Under the pieces are notes generated by a model that saw only the letters and a list, made by a program, of their open reading frames with translations, was not told the DNA's origin and did not search any database. The position numbers and the translations under genes were made by a program. A stretch of 64,000 nt of DNA from Methylobacterium brachythecii (GTDB lineage: Bacteria > Pseudomonadota > Alphaproteobacteria > Rhizobiales > Beijerinckiaceae), in contig NZ_JACIDN010000004.1 of NCBI RefSeq assembly GCF_014196345.1, positions 186,001-250,000 on the forward strand, given 5' to 3'. Of the stretch, positions 15,394-37,199 are shown piece by piece. Numbering within the stretch: the stretch's first letter is position 1; every line of letters begins with the position of its first letter.

Positions 15394-15638
15394 CATTGTG
15401 GTAAACCGGGCCACGCGCAATCTTTCTTCATTTGCTGTTTCGGCAGTGATCGACCGTTCTGCTTTTCGCTCGACAGATGGCGGGAGGGCCACACTGCTAC
15501 AAAAATTTACCGCAATCCCAGGAAGGAGTGTCTCGGACAGTTGATCGAGGCCGGACACATCCGCGATGGTCTCGGCGCTTTACCGCGGTGCGGCTCATGC
15601 GGCCGACCCCGCTCACGAAAAATGAGGGGCATCGAGGC

Positions 15639-17156
15639 ATGAGGGGCTTATTCGATCGCTGGCGGGGGCTGACCGCTCGCTCCCTCATGGGTGGCATGGC
15701 CCGGGCCTCCGTCCTGATCCTGGCGATGGGCGTGACGCTGGCCGAGGCCGCCACGGCCGACCGCCGGGTCGCCCTGGTAATCGGCAACGGCGCCTACGAG
15801 AACGTTCCTGCGCTCGACAATCCGCTCACCGATTCCAAAGCCATCGCCGCGGCCCTGAAGCGCATCGGCTTCGACGTGGTCGAAGGCTACGACCTCAAGC
15901 TCGACGGCATGCGCAGCCTCGTCGGCCAGTACGCCTCGAAGCTCGACGGGGCCAAGGTCGCCTTCGTCTACTATGCCGGCCACGGCGTGGCGGTGGCGGG
16001 CGACAACTACCTCCTGCCCACCGACACCGTCCTGAAGAGCGAGGCCGATCTCGACTTCAAGACCATGAACGTCAATCTCGTCCTCCGGCAGATGCAGCGC
16101 GAGGACCGCGTCAACGTCGTGATCCTCGACGCCTGCCGCGACAATCCCTTCGCCAAGGAACTCGCGCGCTCGCTCAAGACGCGCTCGGCCTCGGTGGCTT
16201 CTGGCCTCTCCGAGATCACGGTAAATTCCGCGGCCGGCACGATGATCGCGTTCGCGACCGATCCGGGCAAGACTGCCCTCGACGGCTCCGGCAGCCACAA
16301 CAGTCCCTTCACCACCGCGCTCCTCAAGCACATGGAGACGCCCGGCGTTTCGATCAGCACGGTGATGGACCGGGTCCGCGAGGACGTCTGGCGTTCGACC
16401 GGCGAGCGTCAACGGCCCTGGGTCAACACCTCGATCATCGGGGAATTCTACCTCAACCCGGCTCCCGCCGCCGCCGTCCAGGTCGCCGCGGCGGAGGTTC
16501 CCGGCGTTCCGTCCGCCAACCCGGCCATGGCCGCGGCGGGTCCGCAGGCGCTGGAGATCAAGCTCTGGGAGTCGGCCGAGCGCTCCGGTGCGGCCGAAGA
16601 TTACAGGGCCTATCTCGACGCGCATCCGAACGGCTACTTCGCGCAGATCGCCCGCAACCGGATCGCGCGCGGGGCGCCGGCCGGCCGTTCGATCCAGTCG
16701 GAGGCCGAGTTGAAGGAGCCCGGCACCACGCAGACCGAGTCGGGGCTCGCCCTGTCCGTGAAGGATCGGATCGAGGCGCAGCAGCGGCTGCGTGCCATCG
16801 GCTTCGATCCCGGCGGCACCTCGGGCACCTTCGGCCCCGGCACCCGGCGCGCGCTGACGAACTGGCAGAAGACCAAGGGCCTGCCGGATTCCGGCTTCCT
16901 CACCAAGGCGCAGCAGGTCGCCCTGTGGGAACAGAGCGAGACGGATTACCAGAAGGCGATCGCGCGTCCGCAGGCCGAGCGTGCGGTGCGGGCGGCCGTG
17001 CCGCGTCCGCAGCGCCCGGCTCCCGCACAGGCCCGCGCCATGCGCGAGCCGGCGCCGTATCCTCAACAGGCGCCGCCTCAGCGCGGACCGTCGCTCGGCG
17101 AGATGGGCAACTTCCTCGGCGGGGTCGGCAACCTCGTCGGCAGCATGCGGCGCTGA
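15639..17156 (+). CDS. Exported caspase-like (C14) protein with peptidoglycan-binding domain
   Basis: A 505-residue protein. A hydrophobic signal segment (residues 20-38) precedes a metacaspase-like p20 domain: RVALVIGNGAYENVPAL, His115 in YYAGHG and Cys166 in LDACRDNP. The middle carries Ala-rich linkers; near residues 375-435 is a peptidoglycan-binding-1-like repeat (IEAQQRLRAIGFDPGGTSGTFG), and the tail is proline- and glutamine-rich ending GNLVGSMRR. Family members cleave after basic residues. The mix suggests a cell-wall located protease. ATG at 15639 with AGGGG upstream is used. Confidence 0.87.
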   Translation: MRGLFDRWRGLTARSLMGGMARASVLILAMGVTLAEAATADRRVALVIGNGAYENVPALDNPLTDSKAIAAALKRIGFDVVEGYDLKLDGMRSLVGQYASKLDGAKVAFVYYAGHGVAVAGDNYLLPTDTVLKSEADLDFKTMNVNLVLRQMQREDRVNVVILDACRDNPFAKELARSLKTRSASVASGLSEITVNSAAGTMIAFATDPGKTALDGSGSHNSPFTTALLKHMETPGVSISTVMDRVREDVWRSTGERQRPWVNTSIIGEFYLNPAPAAAVQVAAAEVPGVPSANPAMAAAGPQALEIKLWESAERSGAAEDYRAYLDAHPNGYFAQIARNRIARGAPAGRSIQSEAELKEPGTTQTESGLALSVKDRIEAQQRLRAIGFDPGGTSGTFGPGTRRALTNWQKTKGLPDSGFLTKAQQVALWEQSETDYQKAIARPQAERAVRAAVPRPQRPAPAQARAMREPAPYPQQAPPQRGPSLGEMGNFLGGVGNLVGSMRR

Positions 17157-20735: not shown

Positions 20736-20991
20736 GGGAGGGTCCAAAGGCCCCCTCACGACCCCATCCAGCGTTCGCATAAGATATATTATGGAACCTG
20801 ATCACGTGATTTCCTGGGGCAGGGGTCCTGGATCGATCCCTCCGGGGCCTGTCGCCGTCCAGGCACAGGCTCGTGGCAAAACGCTCGTGCGACATTGATC
20901 ACGGGCGCGCTGTGGCCGTCGCTCGCGGTAAGGTCACAATGTTTCGCTACGTTTCCCGCTTTCCTGCATCGCGTCTTCAGCCCTCTTTCCC

Positions 20992-33529: not shown

Positions 33530-34906
33530 TCAGTATACGCCGGCGACGTGAGAGCGGCGGCCGCCGGTCGACGCGGCGGGCTTGCCGTTCGAGGCCGCCG
33601 CGAGGCGCGCCATCGCGCTCTTCGCATCCGAAGGCATGGCGGCGGCGCGGGAAACCGGGCCGGCCTTCCCCGTCGCGAGCGTCTTGCCCATCGTGGCCTG
33701 GGCGACCTGAAGCTTCGGCGCGAGGCTCGGCTGGGCGAATTTGGGCTGTCCGAACTTTGTCTCGGCAAACTTGGCTTGCGCGGGTTTGCCGGGCGCGAGC
33801 GCGGCGTGGGCGGCGCGGTTGCCGGTCTCGCGGACCGAGGGAGCGGCTGACGGCTCGCGCATCGCGCCGGCGAGCCGCATGGGCGGGGGTGCGAGGCTGA
33901 GCGGTGCGTGGCCTCGTGCTGGCTCTCCAGCGGAAGCCAGACGGCTCGCCGGGGCGCCATGGGTCGAGGGATTGAGGCCGGCGACCGGCATCGGCTTGAA
34001 CGCCGCGCCACGGGCCGCGGTCGGCTGGACGGCGGCGGGCACGGCGACGCTGGCGGCGCTCGCCAGCACGATCGGCGCGGCGCGCTGCGGGCGTGCGATG
34101 GGCGCTGCCTCGGGCGCATCCTCGTCCGAGCTCGCCGGCTTGTAGGCCAATGTCGGGCGCGAGGTCCGGGAGAAGCGCTCATGCGCGGGCTCCTCGCGGT
34201 CGGGGCCGAGATCGGCCACCATCACCGGCGAGCCCGAGCCGGTCGAAGCCGGGCGCCCATCGGTGCGCAGGCTGGCGAGGAGCTTGCGGTCGTCGCTGCC
34301 GGCCACCGAGGCCTTGCCGACATACTCGACGCGCACGCGCTCGGTGCCCTTGCGGTGAAAGTCCAGCGCCCGGGCCGCCTCCTCCGAGAGATCCATCACG
34401 CGGCCGGCATGGTATGGCCCGCGATCGTTGACGCGCACCACCATCGAGTAGCCGTTCGAGAGATTGGTGACGCGGGCATAGCTCGGCAGCGGCAGCGTCG
34501 GATGCGCGGCGGCGATGGAATGACGGTCGAAGACCTCACCATTGGCCGTCATGCGGCCGTGGAAGGCGGCGCCGTACCAAGAGGCGAGGCCCTCGCGGAC
34601 ATAGCCCCTCGCGTCGTCGCGCGGCACATAGGTCTTGCCGGCCACCACGTAGGGCTTGCCCGAGAAACGGCGTCCGCCGCCCTTCGGGATCACGTCGCCC
34701 TCGTTGTAGAGGCGCTTGGAGGCCTTCACGCCGTATTTCGGGTCGATGTCGCTGCCCGATCCGCCGCCCGCGAATTTCTGAGTGTTGCCCGCGCAGTTGG
34801 CGGTGGTGAGCGCCACGGCGCAGACGCCGAACAGGCGCCAGAGCGGCCAGACGCGCGTCGATGCGCCCAAAGCCGGAACCGATCCGGCCGTCGTGATCCG
34901 CGCCAT
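33530..34906 (-). CDS. rlpA: Septal ring lytic transglycosylase RlpA-family protein
   Basis: A 458-residue exported protein. A hydrophobic N-terminal segment (LWRLFGVCAVALTTANC) could be a lipoprotein signal, though TANC is a poor lipobox. The double-psi beta-barrel domain (about residues 100-205) shows GLASWYGAAFHGRMTANGE, RVTNLSNG and VRVNDRGPYH, including the catalytic-type Asp and His. The C-terminal half is low-complexity, Ala/Pro-rich, with repeats such as FAETKFGQPKFAQPS; no SPOR domain. RlpA cleaves naked glycan at the septum. ATG at 34906 is used. Confidence 0.9.
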   Translation of the reverse strand: MARITTAGSVPALGASTRVWPLWRLFGVCAVALTTANCAGNTQKFAGGGSGSDIDPKYGVKASKRLYNEGDVIPKGGGRRFSGKPYVVAGKTYVPRDDARGYVREGLASWYGAAFHGRMTANGEVFDRHSIAAAHPTLPLPSYARVTNLSNGYSMVVRVNDRGPYHAGRVMDLSEEAARALDFHRKGTERVRVEYVGKASVAGSDDRKLLASLRTDGRPASTGSGSPVMVADLGPDREEPAHERFSRTSRPTLAYKPASSDEDAPEAAPIARPQRAAPIVLASAASVAVPAAVQPTAARGAAFKPMPVAGLNPSTHGAPASRLASAGEPARGHAPLSLAPPPMRLAGAMREPSAAPSVRETGNRAAHAALAPGKPAQAKFAETKFGQPKFAQPSLAPKLQVAQATMGKTLATGKAGPVSRAAAMPSDAKSAMARLAAASNGKPAASTGGRRSHVAGVY

Positions 34907-34912
34907 ACGCAA

Positions 34913-35247: not shown

Positions 35248-35553
35248 TTAGCGGCCCTCGGCCTCGTTGATCTGCTCGATGGAGCGGGCGCCGCGCTGCT
35301 TGAACAGCAGGTCGAGCGCTTCGAGCATGAGCGCGTGCATCTTGGTGCGCTCGGTATGGGCGAGATCGCGCAGCTGATCGTAGACCGGAGGCTCAAGATA
35401 GACCGACATCTGCCGGGCGCGCTCCTTGAGGGTCGCGGCCGGTTTCGCGCGCGGCGCCGGAACGTCGAGCTGGACGATATCCGCGCTCTTGCGGGTCGGC
35501 GGCGTCGCGGCGGCGACGATCGCGGCGAGGTCGAGCTTAGGCGGCCTTGACAT
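35248..35553 (-). CDS. Ribbon-helix-helix partner of ParA
   Basis: A 101-residue protein. The C-terminal half, SVYLEPPVYDQLRDLAHTER followed by a second helix (MHALMLEALDLLFKQRG), has the beta-strand/helix/helix pattern of ribbon-helix-helix DNA-binding proteins. The N-terminal 45 residues are flexible (TPPTRKSADIVQLDVPAPRA), as expected for an arginine-finger/partner tail. It overlaps the end of parA by 17 bases. ParA plus a small RHH protein is the type Ib partition arrangement. The ATG at 35553 is preferred to one at 35568. Confidence 0.8.
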   Translation of the reverse strand: MSRPPKLDLAAIVAAATPPTRKSADIVQLDVPAPRAKPAATLKERARQMSVYLEPPVYDQLRDLAHTERTKMHALMLEALDLLFKQRGARSIEQINEAEGR

Positions 35554-36193
35554 GTTTGCCCGCCCCAATGCCTCGACCCTGCTGCATGCGGCGCTCGATC
35601 CAGGACCAGAGGCGACGGACTTCGCCGGCAGCCTGACCCTTCGGATTGAACTCGGTGACGCCCTGGCCGACGCCGATGGCGTCCTGGTGGTCGGTGCGTG
35701 CGACGATGTTCACGTCCGGCAGGATGCCGAGCACGGCGAGACCGTCGGCGGCATCGCGGATGCGGTAGGAGCGCGGCGGCGTCTGGTTCAGCACGAAAGC
35801 GAATTTCTTCTCGAGCCGGTAGATCGCGGCGAGCGTCGGCTTGAAGGCGCGCAGATCGGCCGGCGTCGGACGGCATGGGATGATGCAGAGATCGGCGGCG
35901 CGGATCGCCGAGAGCGTGCCGGCGGAATCGACGCCCGGCGTGTCGATGAAGACGTAGTCGTAGGCGGATTCGTGCAGCCGCTCCATCACGGCCTCGATCT
36001 GCGTCGCGTCGATCTGGGCGACCTCCGGGCCGTCGGCGGTGCGGTGGTCGAGCCAATCCGAGACGGTGGCTTGGCGGTCCATCTCGAGGATGCAGACCGT
36101 CTTGCCGGCTTCCTGAGCAGCGACGGCGAGCGAGATGCAGAGCGTGCTCTTGCCGCTGCCTCCCTTCTGCGTGACGAACGTGATGGCCTTCAT
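35537..36193 (-). CDS. parA: ParA/MinD-type ATPase, type Ib-like
   Basis: A 218-residue Walker ATPase with the deviant P-loop KGGSGKST at residues 10-17 and no N-terminal DNA-binding extension; Walker A' ILEMDRQATVSDWL and switch DTPGVDSAG follow. It is the size of plasmid type Ib ParA. It overlaps a ribbon-helix-helix gene downstream, without ParB or parS-like genes. It is not the chromosomal parAB locus, so it probably positions a protein complex or other cargo. It may be a chromosomally captured plasmid gene or an orphan positioning ATPase. Confidence 0.88.
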   Translation of the reverse strand: MKAITFVTQKGGSGKSTLCISLAVAAQEAGKTVCILEMDRQATVSDWLDHRTADGPEVAQIDATQIEAVMERLHESAYDYVFIDTPGVDSAGTLSAIRAADLCIIPCRPTPADLRAFKPTLAAIYRLEKKFAFVLNQTPPRSYRIRDAADGLAVLGILPDVNIVARTDHQDAIGVGQGVTEFNPKGQAAGEVRRLWSWIERRMQQGRGIGAGKHVKAA

Positions 36194-36265
36194 CGCAGTG
36201 AAACCCCTCGAGCCTGCCGGCCTGCCGCTGCGATCGTCCTCGACCGCCTCGCGCCCGTCACGGCG

Positions 36266-36388
36266 TCCTGTGATCCGGAGATGCCTTGATCCCGGATTCT
36301 CTGGCCCCTGGTGTCGCCGATCATGGTTAACCGACGGTTAAGAGCATCGGATCGCCGGATGACACGATCATGGCATCCTGTGATCCGG
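36266..36388. repeat. 13-bp direct repeat near parA
   Basis: TCCTGTGATCCGG occurs at 36266-36278 and 36376-36388, spaced 110 bases, both preceded by GGCG/GGCA. A related TTGATCCCGG lies at 36286-36295. Candidate binding sites for the RHH partner. Confidence 0.65.
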
Positions 36389-36430
36389 GAGGATTCTTTC
36401 GACGAGGGGTGGCTGCCCTACCCTCTGTCG

Positions 36431-36572
36431 TAAACTTGAAGTTTATTTTGGCCGATGGCCCTCGATCGGAGCCGAAACGTTCTGCGCAAGAGCGTGCTTT
36501 ACAGCGGATCGGGCTGCGGCTTAAGGTTTCGTCATGGCAAATGCGGCCTGAAAATAAATCTGAAGTTTATTT
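36431..36572. promoter_or_regulatory. AT-rich palindromes with a shared 12-mer, possible centromere/operator
   Basis: TAAACTT-G-AAGTTTA (36431-36445) is perfect; AAATAAA-N7-TTTATTT (36552-36572) is also perfect. Both contain TGAAGTTTATTT (36437-36448 and 36561-36572), 124 bases apart. In type Ib systems AT-rich repeats upstream of parA serve as centromere and operator, so this is a good candidate. Confidence 0.5.
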
Positions 36573-36641
36573 ATTTCACCTTGCCCGGATCAGCCCTATT
36601 TCCTGGGCTGGTCGTCCCGCCGTGCCGGAGTTCGCATCCGC

Positions 36642-37199
36642 ATGCTGCCCGATCTGCCTTTGCCCGACATGGATTTCGGGGCCGCCCTCGACGGTTCGGC
36701 CTGTCTCGGCGCCTGGACGCACGACCTCGCCAAAGGGCGGCTCCGCCTGGCGCCAGCGCTCTCTCGTGCGTTCGGTCTGGCAGCCGGAGAGGTCGCCGGC
36801 GTCCCCCTGACGCGGGTCATCGCGGCGATCCATGCCGAAGACGGCCCGCGCATCGAGAGCCTGTTCGCGGCGTCCCGGGAGATCGGCGGCCCGTTCGAAG
36901 CGGAATTCCGCACCCGGGGCGGGGATCGCTGGCTGCGGCTGATGGGGCGGACGGATCGCGCCGCGCGGGCCTGCGGCCTCGCCTTCGATCTCACCGAGGG
37001 CAGGCTGGGCGGTGGCGGACCGGCTCACAGGGCGCAATGGCAGGCCAACCAGCTCGCCGAGCACGTGATCGCTATGAAGGGCCTCGTCCCGCCCCTGGAC
37101 AACCCGTCGCTCGCCCGGCTGGTCGACCGGCTCGCGGTGGAGATCGGTTTCGAGCTCGCCCGCCGCCTCGTGCCCGATGCCGGCGACGTTCGGCACTGA
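36642..37199 (+). CDS. PAS domain protein
   Basis: A 185-residue protein with a PAS fold across residues about 20-120 (GSACLGAWTHDLAKGRLRL, LTRVIAAIHAEDGPRIES, WLRLMGRTDRAARACG), followed by a helical tail with no kinase or other output domain. It could be a sensor module for a separate partner. It is divergent from parA and shares its intergenic region. Its function is unknown. Confidence 0.7.
   Translation: MLPDLPLPDMDFGAALDGSACLGAWTHDLAKGRLRLAPALSRAFGLAAGEVAGVPLTRVIAAIHAEDGPRIESLFAASREIGGPFEAEFRTRGGDRWLRLMGRTDRAARACGLAFDLTEGRLGGGGPAHRAQWQANQLAEHVIAMKGLVPPLDNPSLARLVDRLAVEIGFELARRLVPDAGDVRH

Follow-up and report, generated by a model that had tools for sequence, protein, structure and literature searches.

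A ParA–ribbon-helix-helix gene pair linked to dif in Methylobacterium and its possible role at the chromosome terminus

What does a gene pair with the layout of a plasmid partition system do on a bacterial chromosome? In Methylobacterium brachythecii, a parA gene overlaps a gene encoding a ribbon-helix-helix (RHH) protein, and the pair is preceded by repeated sequences. An earlier interpretation, made from the letters and open reading frames without database searches (the sequence-only reading), considered it a possible orphan positioning system that might place some non-plasmid cargo or might have been captured. We analysed the pair in a window of 64,000 nucleotides (contig NZ_JACIDN010000004.1, positions 186,001 to 250,000), and compared it with related loci in congeneric genomes, sister genera and plasmid-like contigs.

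The gene pair and its relatives

The parA gene (35537..36193, minus strand) encodes an ATPase of the ParA/MinD type of 218 amino acids, with the deviant Walker A motif KGGSGKST and without an N-terminal HTH. The protein matches the Pfam model AAA_31 at 6e-16, and its best PDB relative by sequence is the plasmid protein ParF (4dzz). Its score with the NCBIfam equivalog model NF041546 (ParA_partition) is 147.4 bits, under the cut-off of 180 bits. The partner gene (35248..35553, minus strand) starts with the ATG at 35553 and encodes 101 amino acids. It overlaps parA by 17 bp, which suggests that the two genes are co-transcribed.

The partner protein matches PF20605 at 1.8e-8; this and a weak match to RHH_4 are its sole matches, and no homology to MatP was detected. 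PF20605 is present in all 16 aligned members of the family (16/16). In these, the N-terminus carries a conserved motif (consensus MSKPPKLxLASIVA), which is followed by a linker of variable sequence and by a C-terminal RHH domain; by analogy, this would be the layout of a ParA-stimulating partner. The AlphaFold model of the monomer is poor (pLDDT 65.5, pTM 0.28).

The sequence-only reading had described a ParA without an N-terminal DNA-binding domain and an RHH partner overlapping it by 17 bases, and had recognised in them the layout of type Ib plasmid partition. All this agrees with our results. The ParA is small, has a Walker A motif of the form KGGxxK[ST] and no N-terminal HTH; the small RHH gene paired with it encodes a putative centromere-binding protein; and the parA promoter contains iterated 8-bp arrays, the candidate RHH sites. 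What does not agree with type Ib is carriage on a plasmid or stabilisation of one, as the locus is chromosomal, linked to dif, and conserved. Thus the pair may work in a type Ib-like manner, yet it is not a plasmid system. It does not resemble a type II toxin-antitoxin module either, as the partner of the RHH protein is a ParA and the next gene, at a distance of 335 bp, is rlpA.

Orthologues of ParA, 85–99% identical, were found in 91 of the 111 congeneric genomes. In the remaining 20, which come mostly from species with large genomes, ParA matches are of at most 49% identity or absent. Orthologues with about 70–85% identity were observed in Enterovirga, Salinarimonas, Faunimonas, and related genera. 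The RHH gene adjoins parA in the orthologous loci examined, and in most of them rlpA comes next. Judging from this distribution and synteny across Methylobacterium, the pair is a conserved chromosomal one; the capture envisaged earlier, if meant as a recent event, is contradicted by the high identity of ParA in the congeners and by its presence in sister genera.

More distant relatives are present on small plasmid-like contigs, which encode a ParA of about 51% identity (BLAST) together with a related RHH protein. Chromosomal ParA genes of other genera with 39–44% identity were rejected as non-orthologous; they are not accompanied by homologous RHH and rlpA genes. Loci L090–L106 represent a second chromosomal ParA type (39–44% identity); in most of its members the C-terminal tail is basic and an RHH partner is lacking. 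TTAA-N7-TTAA boxes are situated just upstream of the second-type ParA at four loci (L090, L097, L098, L106).

The rlpA-family gene downstream of the pair (33530..34912, minus strand; TIGR00413, 2.6e-39) is a conserved neighbour, and its adjacency had been taken as a clue to the function of the system. However, rlpA is retained in species that have no parA-RHH pair, and in Faunimonas, where parA, the RHH gene and the CtrA-type box described below are all kept, rlpA is not adjacent to the pair. Therefore we rejected it as a clue to the cargo; it is probably a bystander outside the system. The divergent gene on the other side (36642..37199, plus strand) encodes a PAS-fold protein with a weak match to PAS_3. 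It was seen in Methylobacterium and Methylorubrum loci, was not detected in sister genera, and probably does not belong to the system either.

Regulatory elements upstream of parA

The upstream region of parA contains a direct repeat of 21 nt at 36258–36278 and 36368–36388, whose copies are 90% identical and both contain the core TCCTGTGATCCGG. By itself, the 11-mer GGATCACAGGA is weak evidence, as it occurs three times in the window with at most one mismatch, compared with 0.95 expected occurrences. The repeats are meaningful because they are members of tandem arrays with an 8-bp unit, ATC-N5, i.e. GATC-N4; the sequence-only reading had reported both repeats correctly and had missed the arrays. 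The upstream array (36345..36384, minus strand) consists of the units ATCACAGG ATGCCATG ATCGTGTC ATCCGGCG ATCCGATG, with one mismatch to the fivefold ATC-N5 pattern. The downstream array (36267..36290, minus strand), ATCAAGGC ATCTCCGG ATCACAGG, occupies the most conserved array position in the relatives.

The period of 8 bp is conserved. In 91 distinct upstream regions, pairs of ATC occur 113 times at lag 8, with 3.0 expected, and 92 and 42 times at lags 16 and 24, respectively, with about 3 expected. Among the 64 trinucleotides, ATC has the strongest 8-bp recurrence. Runs of at least three ATC units were found in 45 of the 91 regions, compared with 0.08 in shuffled sequences; in half of the regions the array has fewer than three exact units. 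The plasmid-like relatives with a ParA of about 51% identity have repeats with a TGAT core and the same 8-bp period upstream of parA. As such arrays are present also at related plasmid-like ParA-RHH pairs, they are likely to be the sites of the RHH protein.

The two arrays stand on either side of a candidate CtrA box (36323..36341, minus strand; TTAACCGTCGGTTAACCAT). It fits the pattern TTAA-N7-TTAACC, the CtrA consensus (in published papers used in the form TTAA-N7-TTAA). The pattern was found in 87 of the 91 distinct 300-bp upstream regions, compared with 0.005 in shuffles, whereas for none of the other spacers between 3 and 12 does TTAA-Nx-TTAACC occur more than once in the 91 regions (0 or 1 occurrences each). 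Thus the promoters have the TTAA-N7-TTAA box of the CtrA regulon, in 87 of 91 cases and with spacing 7 alone.

The genome of M. brachythecii contains 19 matches to TTAA-N7-TTAACC, compared with one in the reversed control. They are situated near fliL, a flagellar rod-protein gene, and genes encoding GGDEF, PilZ and response-regulator proteins, which looks like the gene set expected of a CtrA regulon. We infer that CtrA binds at the parA promoter. A box of this type adjoins a phasin gene (locus L069, G000:C7:99270), a hint that storage granules may be under cell-cycle control.

Two AT-rich elements with the common sequence TGAAGTTTATTT are located further upstream, at 36431–36448 and 36555–36572, as noted in the sequence-only reading. 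The first contains an odd palindrome (36431..36445, unstranded; TAAACTTGAAGTTTA), and the second an imperfect one (36555..36569, unstranded; TAAATCTGAAGTTTA). The palindrome TAAACTTSAAGTTTA occurs twice in the window with at most three mismatches, compared with 0.04 expected. However, these elements could not be retained as candidates for the centromere of parA. They are situated towards the divergent PAS gene, their exact sequence is limited to near kin, and no copies were seen in those sister genera where parA-RHH is present and the PAS gene is not. They are probably bystanders, and the palindrome at 36431..36445 probably serves some unrelated regulator as an operator close to the PAS gene. 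The suggestion that the upstream repeats are both centromere and operator is supported for the GC-rich TCCTGTGATCCGG repeats, as part of a conserved 8-bp operator- or centromere-like element, and not supported for the palindromes.

In Methylobacterium, the region preceding the PAS gene (36431–36569 in the window, and the homologous regions) repeatedly contains odd palindromes of the AACTTGAAGTT / TACCTGAGGTA type. In one group they are observed also between the CtrA-type box and parA. We read them as a putative operator of some regulator.

The chromosome terminus and the dispersed arrays

Within the window, the dif consensus is matched best at 20772..20799 (plus strand; CGTTCGCATAAGATATATTATGGAACCT); this is dif, the XerCD-type site of chromosome dimer resolution. 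The identical 28-mer is the best consensus match also in the terminus stretch of another genome, G012. The polarity of GGGNAGGG flips at dif both in the window and in G012, and flips in the opposite direction near ori in G012. Thus the window spans the chromosome terminus. The signal of GC skew was too weak for locating ter, and the polarity of GGGNAGGG was used together with the dif scan. Estimates of ter from the positions of exact parS sites were in rough agreement with dif, but G028 was misplaced.

With at most three mismatches, the dif 28-mer was found exactly once in each of 30 genomes out of 40, and its flanks have diverged. The same search gave no match in seven tested large-genome species without the pair (G005, G010, G029, G050, G063, G071, G105), where dif has probably diverged.

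The distance between parA and dif is 15 kb in the window and 7–10 kb in five genomes of sister genera that were tested; among the 27 placed genomes, 21 have parA no further than 65 kb from dif. In five Methylorubrum-like genomes, parA is 0.47–1.0 Mb from dif. We regard the linkage of parA to dif as ancestral. This linkage, together with the conservation of the pair on chromosomes, supports the earlier proposal of a chromosomal, non-plasmid role.

Two further observations were made in the vicinity of dif. In Methylorubrum-like genomes, CtrA-like half sites, TTAACCAT, occur within about 100 bp of dif (L310, L316, L319, L325, L328). In the window, the region 15477–17156, 3.6 kb from dif, encodes a protein with a weak match to a caspase-like (EACC1-associated) domain.

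Candidate arrays occur also outside the parA promoter. At a low threshold, the array scan had no excess over Markov sequence (201 compared with 226 matches). We therefore scored arrays with a log-odds model at higher cut-offs, added a period control, and considered arrays with a score of at least 25 as strong. In G012, the 440 kb around dif contain eight strong arrays, and the control regions of 200 kb in mid-arm and 200 kb around ori contain none; third-order Markov sequence yields 0.2 strong arrays on average. In the period control, period 8 had the highest count in the terminus stretch of G012 and a count of zero in the controls.

In the 11 genomes with mapped dif, 27 strong arrays were found apart from those in the parA promoter; 21 of them are situated within 325 kb of dif, where 11% are expected (nominal p 1.5e-15, kinship of the genomes being ignored). 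Further, array matches are about four-fold fewer in species without the pair: their density is 1.83 per Mb in genomes with the pair (n=91) and 0.44 in genomes without it (n=20; Mann-Whitney p 2.7e-11, again ignoring kinship). As the genomes are related, these nominal p-values overstate the significance. The 20 large-genome congeners without the pair may form one clade, and thus the presence/absence test may hold few independent events.

In M. brachythecii, arrays of five units are clustered on the contig of parA (C4), at 118.6, 122.4, 135.3 and 141.2 kb and at parA itself; others are on contigs C8 and C2. By gene names assigned on inspection of the sequence, most five-unit arrays are situated between genes or at the ends of genes, whereas the array at 122.4 kb is inside mfd. 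The one Methylorubrum-like genome examined, G013, has one weak array near dif and none near parA; this weak array is inside mfd and may be a product of coding constraint. Arrays flanking dif are situated at recG-sdhE and qor-pncA and upstream of mazG (names likewise from inspection of the sequence); an array directly at dif was seen in only 1 of 30 genomes. There are a few array-like matches elsewhere, including isolated 8-bp arrays such as GATCACAGGATCGCGGGATCGCGGGATC near the parS/ori side in three species (G094, G098 and G042).

Function of the pair and comparison with known systems

The gene pair, the arrays and their bias towards dif, the linkage of parA to dif, the CtrA-type box, and the correlation of array density with the presence of the pair are all seen in the sequences themselves. 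The explanation that we favour, and consider fairly probable, is a domesticated plasmid-type Ib system in which the RHH protein marks the terminus and ParA positions or separates the Ter regions under the control of CtrA. RHH dimers would bind cooperatively, one per 8-bp unit, to the GATC-N4 arrays in the parA promoter and in the regions flanking dif, and the bound arrays would double as operator and centromere-like sites. ParA-ATP would bind the nucleoid, and the array-bound RHH protein would stimulate its ATPase activity, probably via the conserved N-terminal motif. In this way Ter regions would be positioned or separated at about the stage when dimers are resolved and the cell divides, with CtrA timing the expression of parA and the RHH gene.

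A stronger form of this explanation is a second, terminus-specific partition system, in which the RHH protein on the dif-flanking arrays and a dedicated ParA actively position or separate sister termini under CtrA. It would be the first RHH-class and the first Ter-directed chromosomal ParA system in bacteria; we advance it tentatively, as a serious candidate. No description of a dif-linked ParA-RHH system was found in the literature covered, which includes only a minority of subscription papers.

It is possible, though rather unlikely, that the RHH protein binds the arrays mainly as a chromosome-organising or transcription factor, bridging Ter in a SegB- or MatP-like manner, and that ParA only modulates it, without active segregation. 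The arrays are indeed spread over hundreds of kilobases around dif; SegB is known to bridge distant sites and compact DNA (PMC12284271), and MatP structures the 800-kb Ter domain via 13-bp matS sites (PMC3330122). However, the RHH gene is strictly paired with a conserved ParA, and its product has the conserved N-terminal motif before a variable linker; both features point to a ParA-stimulating partner.

We find it less likely still that the arrays at parA are an autoregulatory operator only and the cargo is not DNA but a protein cluster, as for PpfA or McdA, the other arrays being unrelated or belonging to another protein. ParA homologues such as PpfA do position protein clusters (PMC7333895), and the distal arrays are putative RHH sites. 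On the other hand, the distal arrays have the 8-bp period and the GATC core, are biased towards dif, and are depleted in genomes without the pair.

The relatives of ParA (about 51% identity) whose genes are found on small contigs of plasmid-like character, next to 8-bp arrays, could also suggest a captured plasmid partition locus in decay, which persists by chance or because it serves in incompatibility or against plasmids. This is very improbable, as identity of 85–99% over 91 genomes, a conserved CtrA-type box and dif linkage across genera make a pattern unlike decay. Finally, a VirC1/VirC2-like accessory of DNA transfer can practically be dismissed: the ParA scores above the cut-off of the VirC1 Pfam model (39.8 compared with 24 bits) but far below that of the VirC1 equivalog model (40 compared with 313 bits), and the conserved context is dif, rlpA and the CtrA-type box, with no transfer genes among the neighbours examined.

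To our knowledge, the handling of sister termini, that is, their positioning and hand-over to dimer resolution and division, is unsettled outside enterobacteria. A conserved pair close to dif, together with candidate centromere arrays to either side and a promoter that contains a CtrA-type box, would mean that a plasmid-type segregation machine has been re-tasked to the terminus; such systems are not known to have this task in bacteria. If the favoured explanation is true, the system would be a parallel to the archaeal SegAB and would tie the alphaproteobacterial cell-cycle regulator to the handling of Ter. The arrays are exact DNA targets, and thus the claim is directly testable.

The closest analogy in layout is provided by the plasmid systems ParF-ParG (TP228) and delta-omega (pSM19035), which also have a small ParA without HTH, an overlapping RHH gene, and promoter arrays of short RHH sites. 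In the contiguous arrays of plasmid omega, each RHH dimer has one short site. The omega unit WATCACW resembles ATCAC, although its period is 7 rather than 8 bp; at least four contiguous WATCACW heptads are needed for the activation of ParA (PMC9499535). Unlike plasmid type Ib systems, the Methylobacterium pair is chromosomal, conserved and linked to dif, with arrays dispersed around the terminus and a CtrA-type box in the promoter.

Chromosomal ParABS is similar in that the positioning of DNA is driven by ParA, but it has an HTH ParB and parS sites near oriC. The chromosomal partition systems known in bacteria work at oriC by means of an HTH-type ParB, and according to a review every centromere-binding protein of bacterial chromosomes belongs to the HTH class (PMC5002424). 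ZapT of Caulobacter is likewise an alphaproteobacterial terminus-binding protein tied to division, but it belongs to the MerR family and has no cognate ParA (PMC7188993).

The terminus bias itself has a counterpart in MatP/matS of enterobacteria. The matS sites are confined to a Ter domain of hundreds of kilobases (PMC3330122); the arrays are biased towards dif, with a few matches elsewhere, including near ori. The matS sites are single 13-bp sites, MatP has no ParA partner, and no relationship between the proteins was detected. In SegAB of Sulfolobales (archaea), a ParA and an RHH protein are encoded on the chromosome, with sites both near the locus and dispersed (PMC12284271). However, this system is from another domain of life and has no dif or terminus focus, and the SegB motif is a 13-bp palindrome: the pattern TCTAGA-S-TCTAGA is not that of the Methylobacterium arrays, which are GATC-N4 with an 8-bp period. 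An RHH domain is present also in MatP. The parA-RHH pair shares a chromosomal location with SegAB and a bias towards the terminus with MatP/matS, and appears to be a member of neither.
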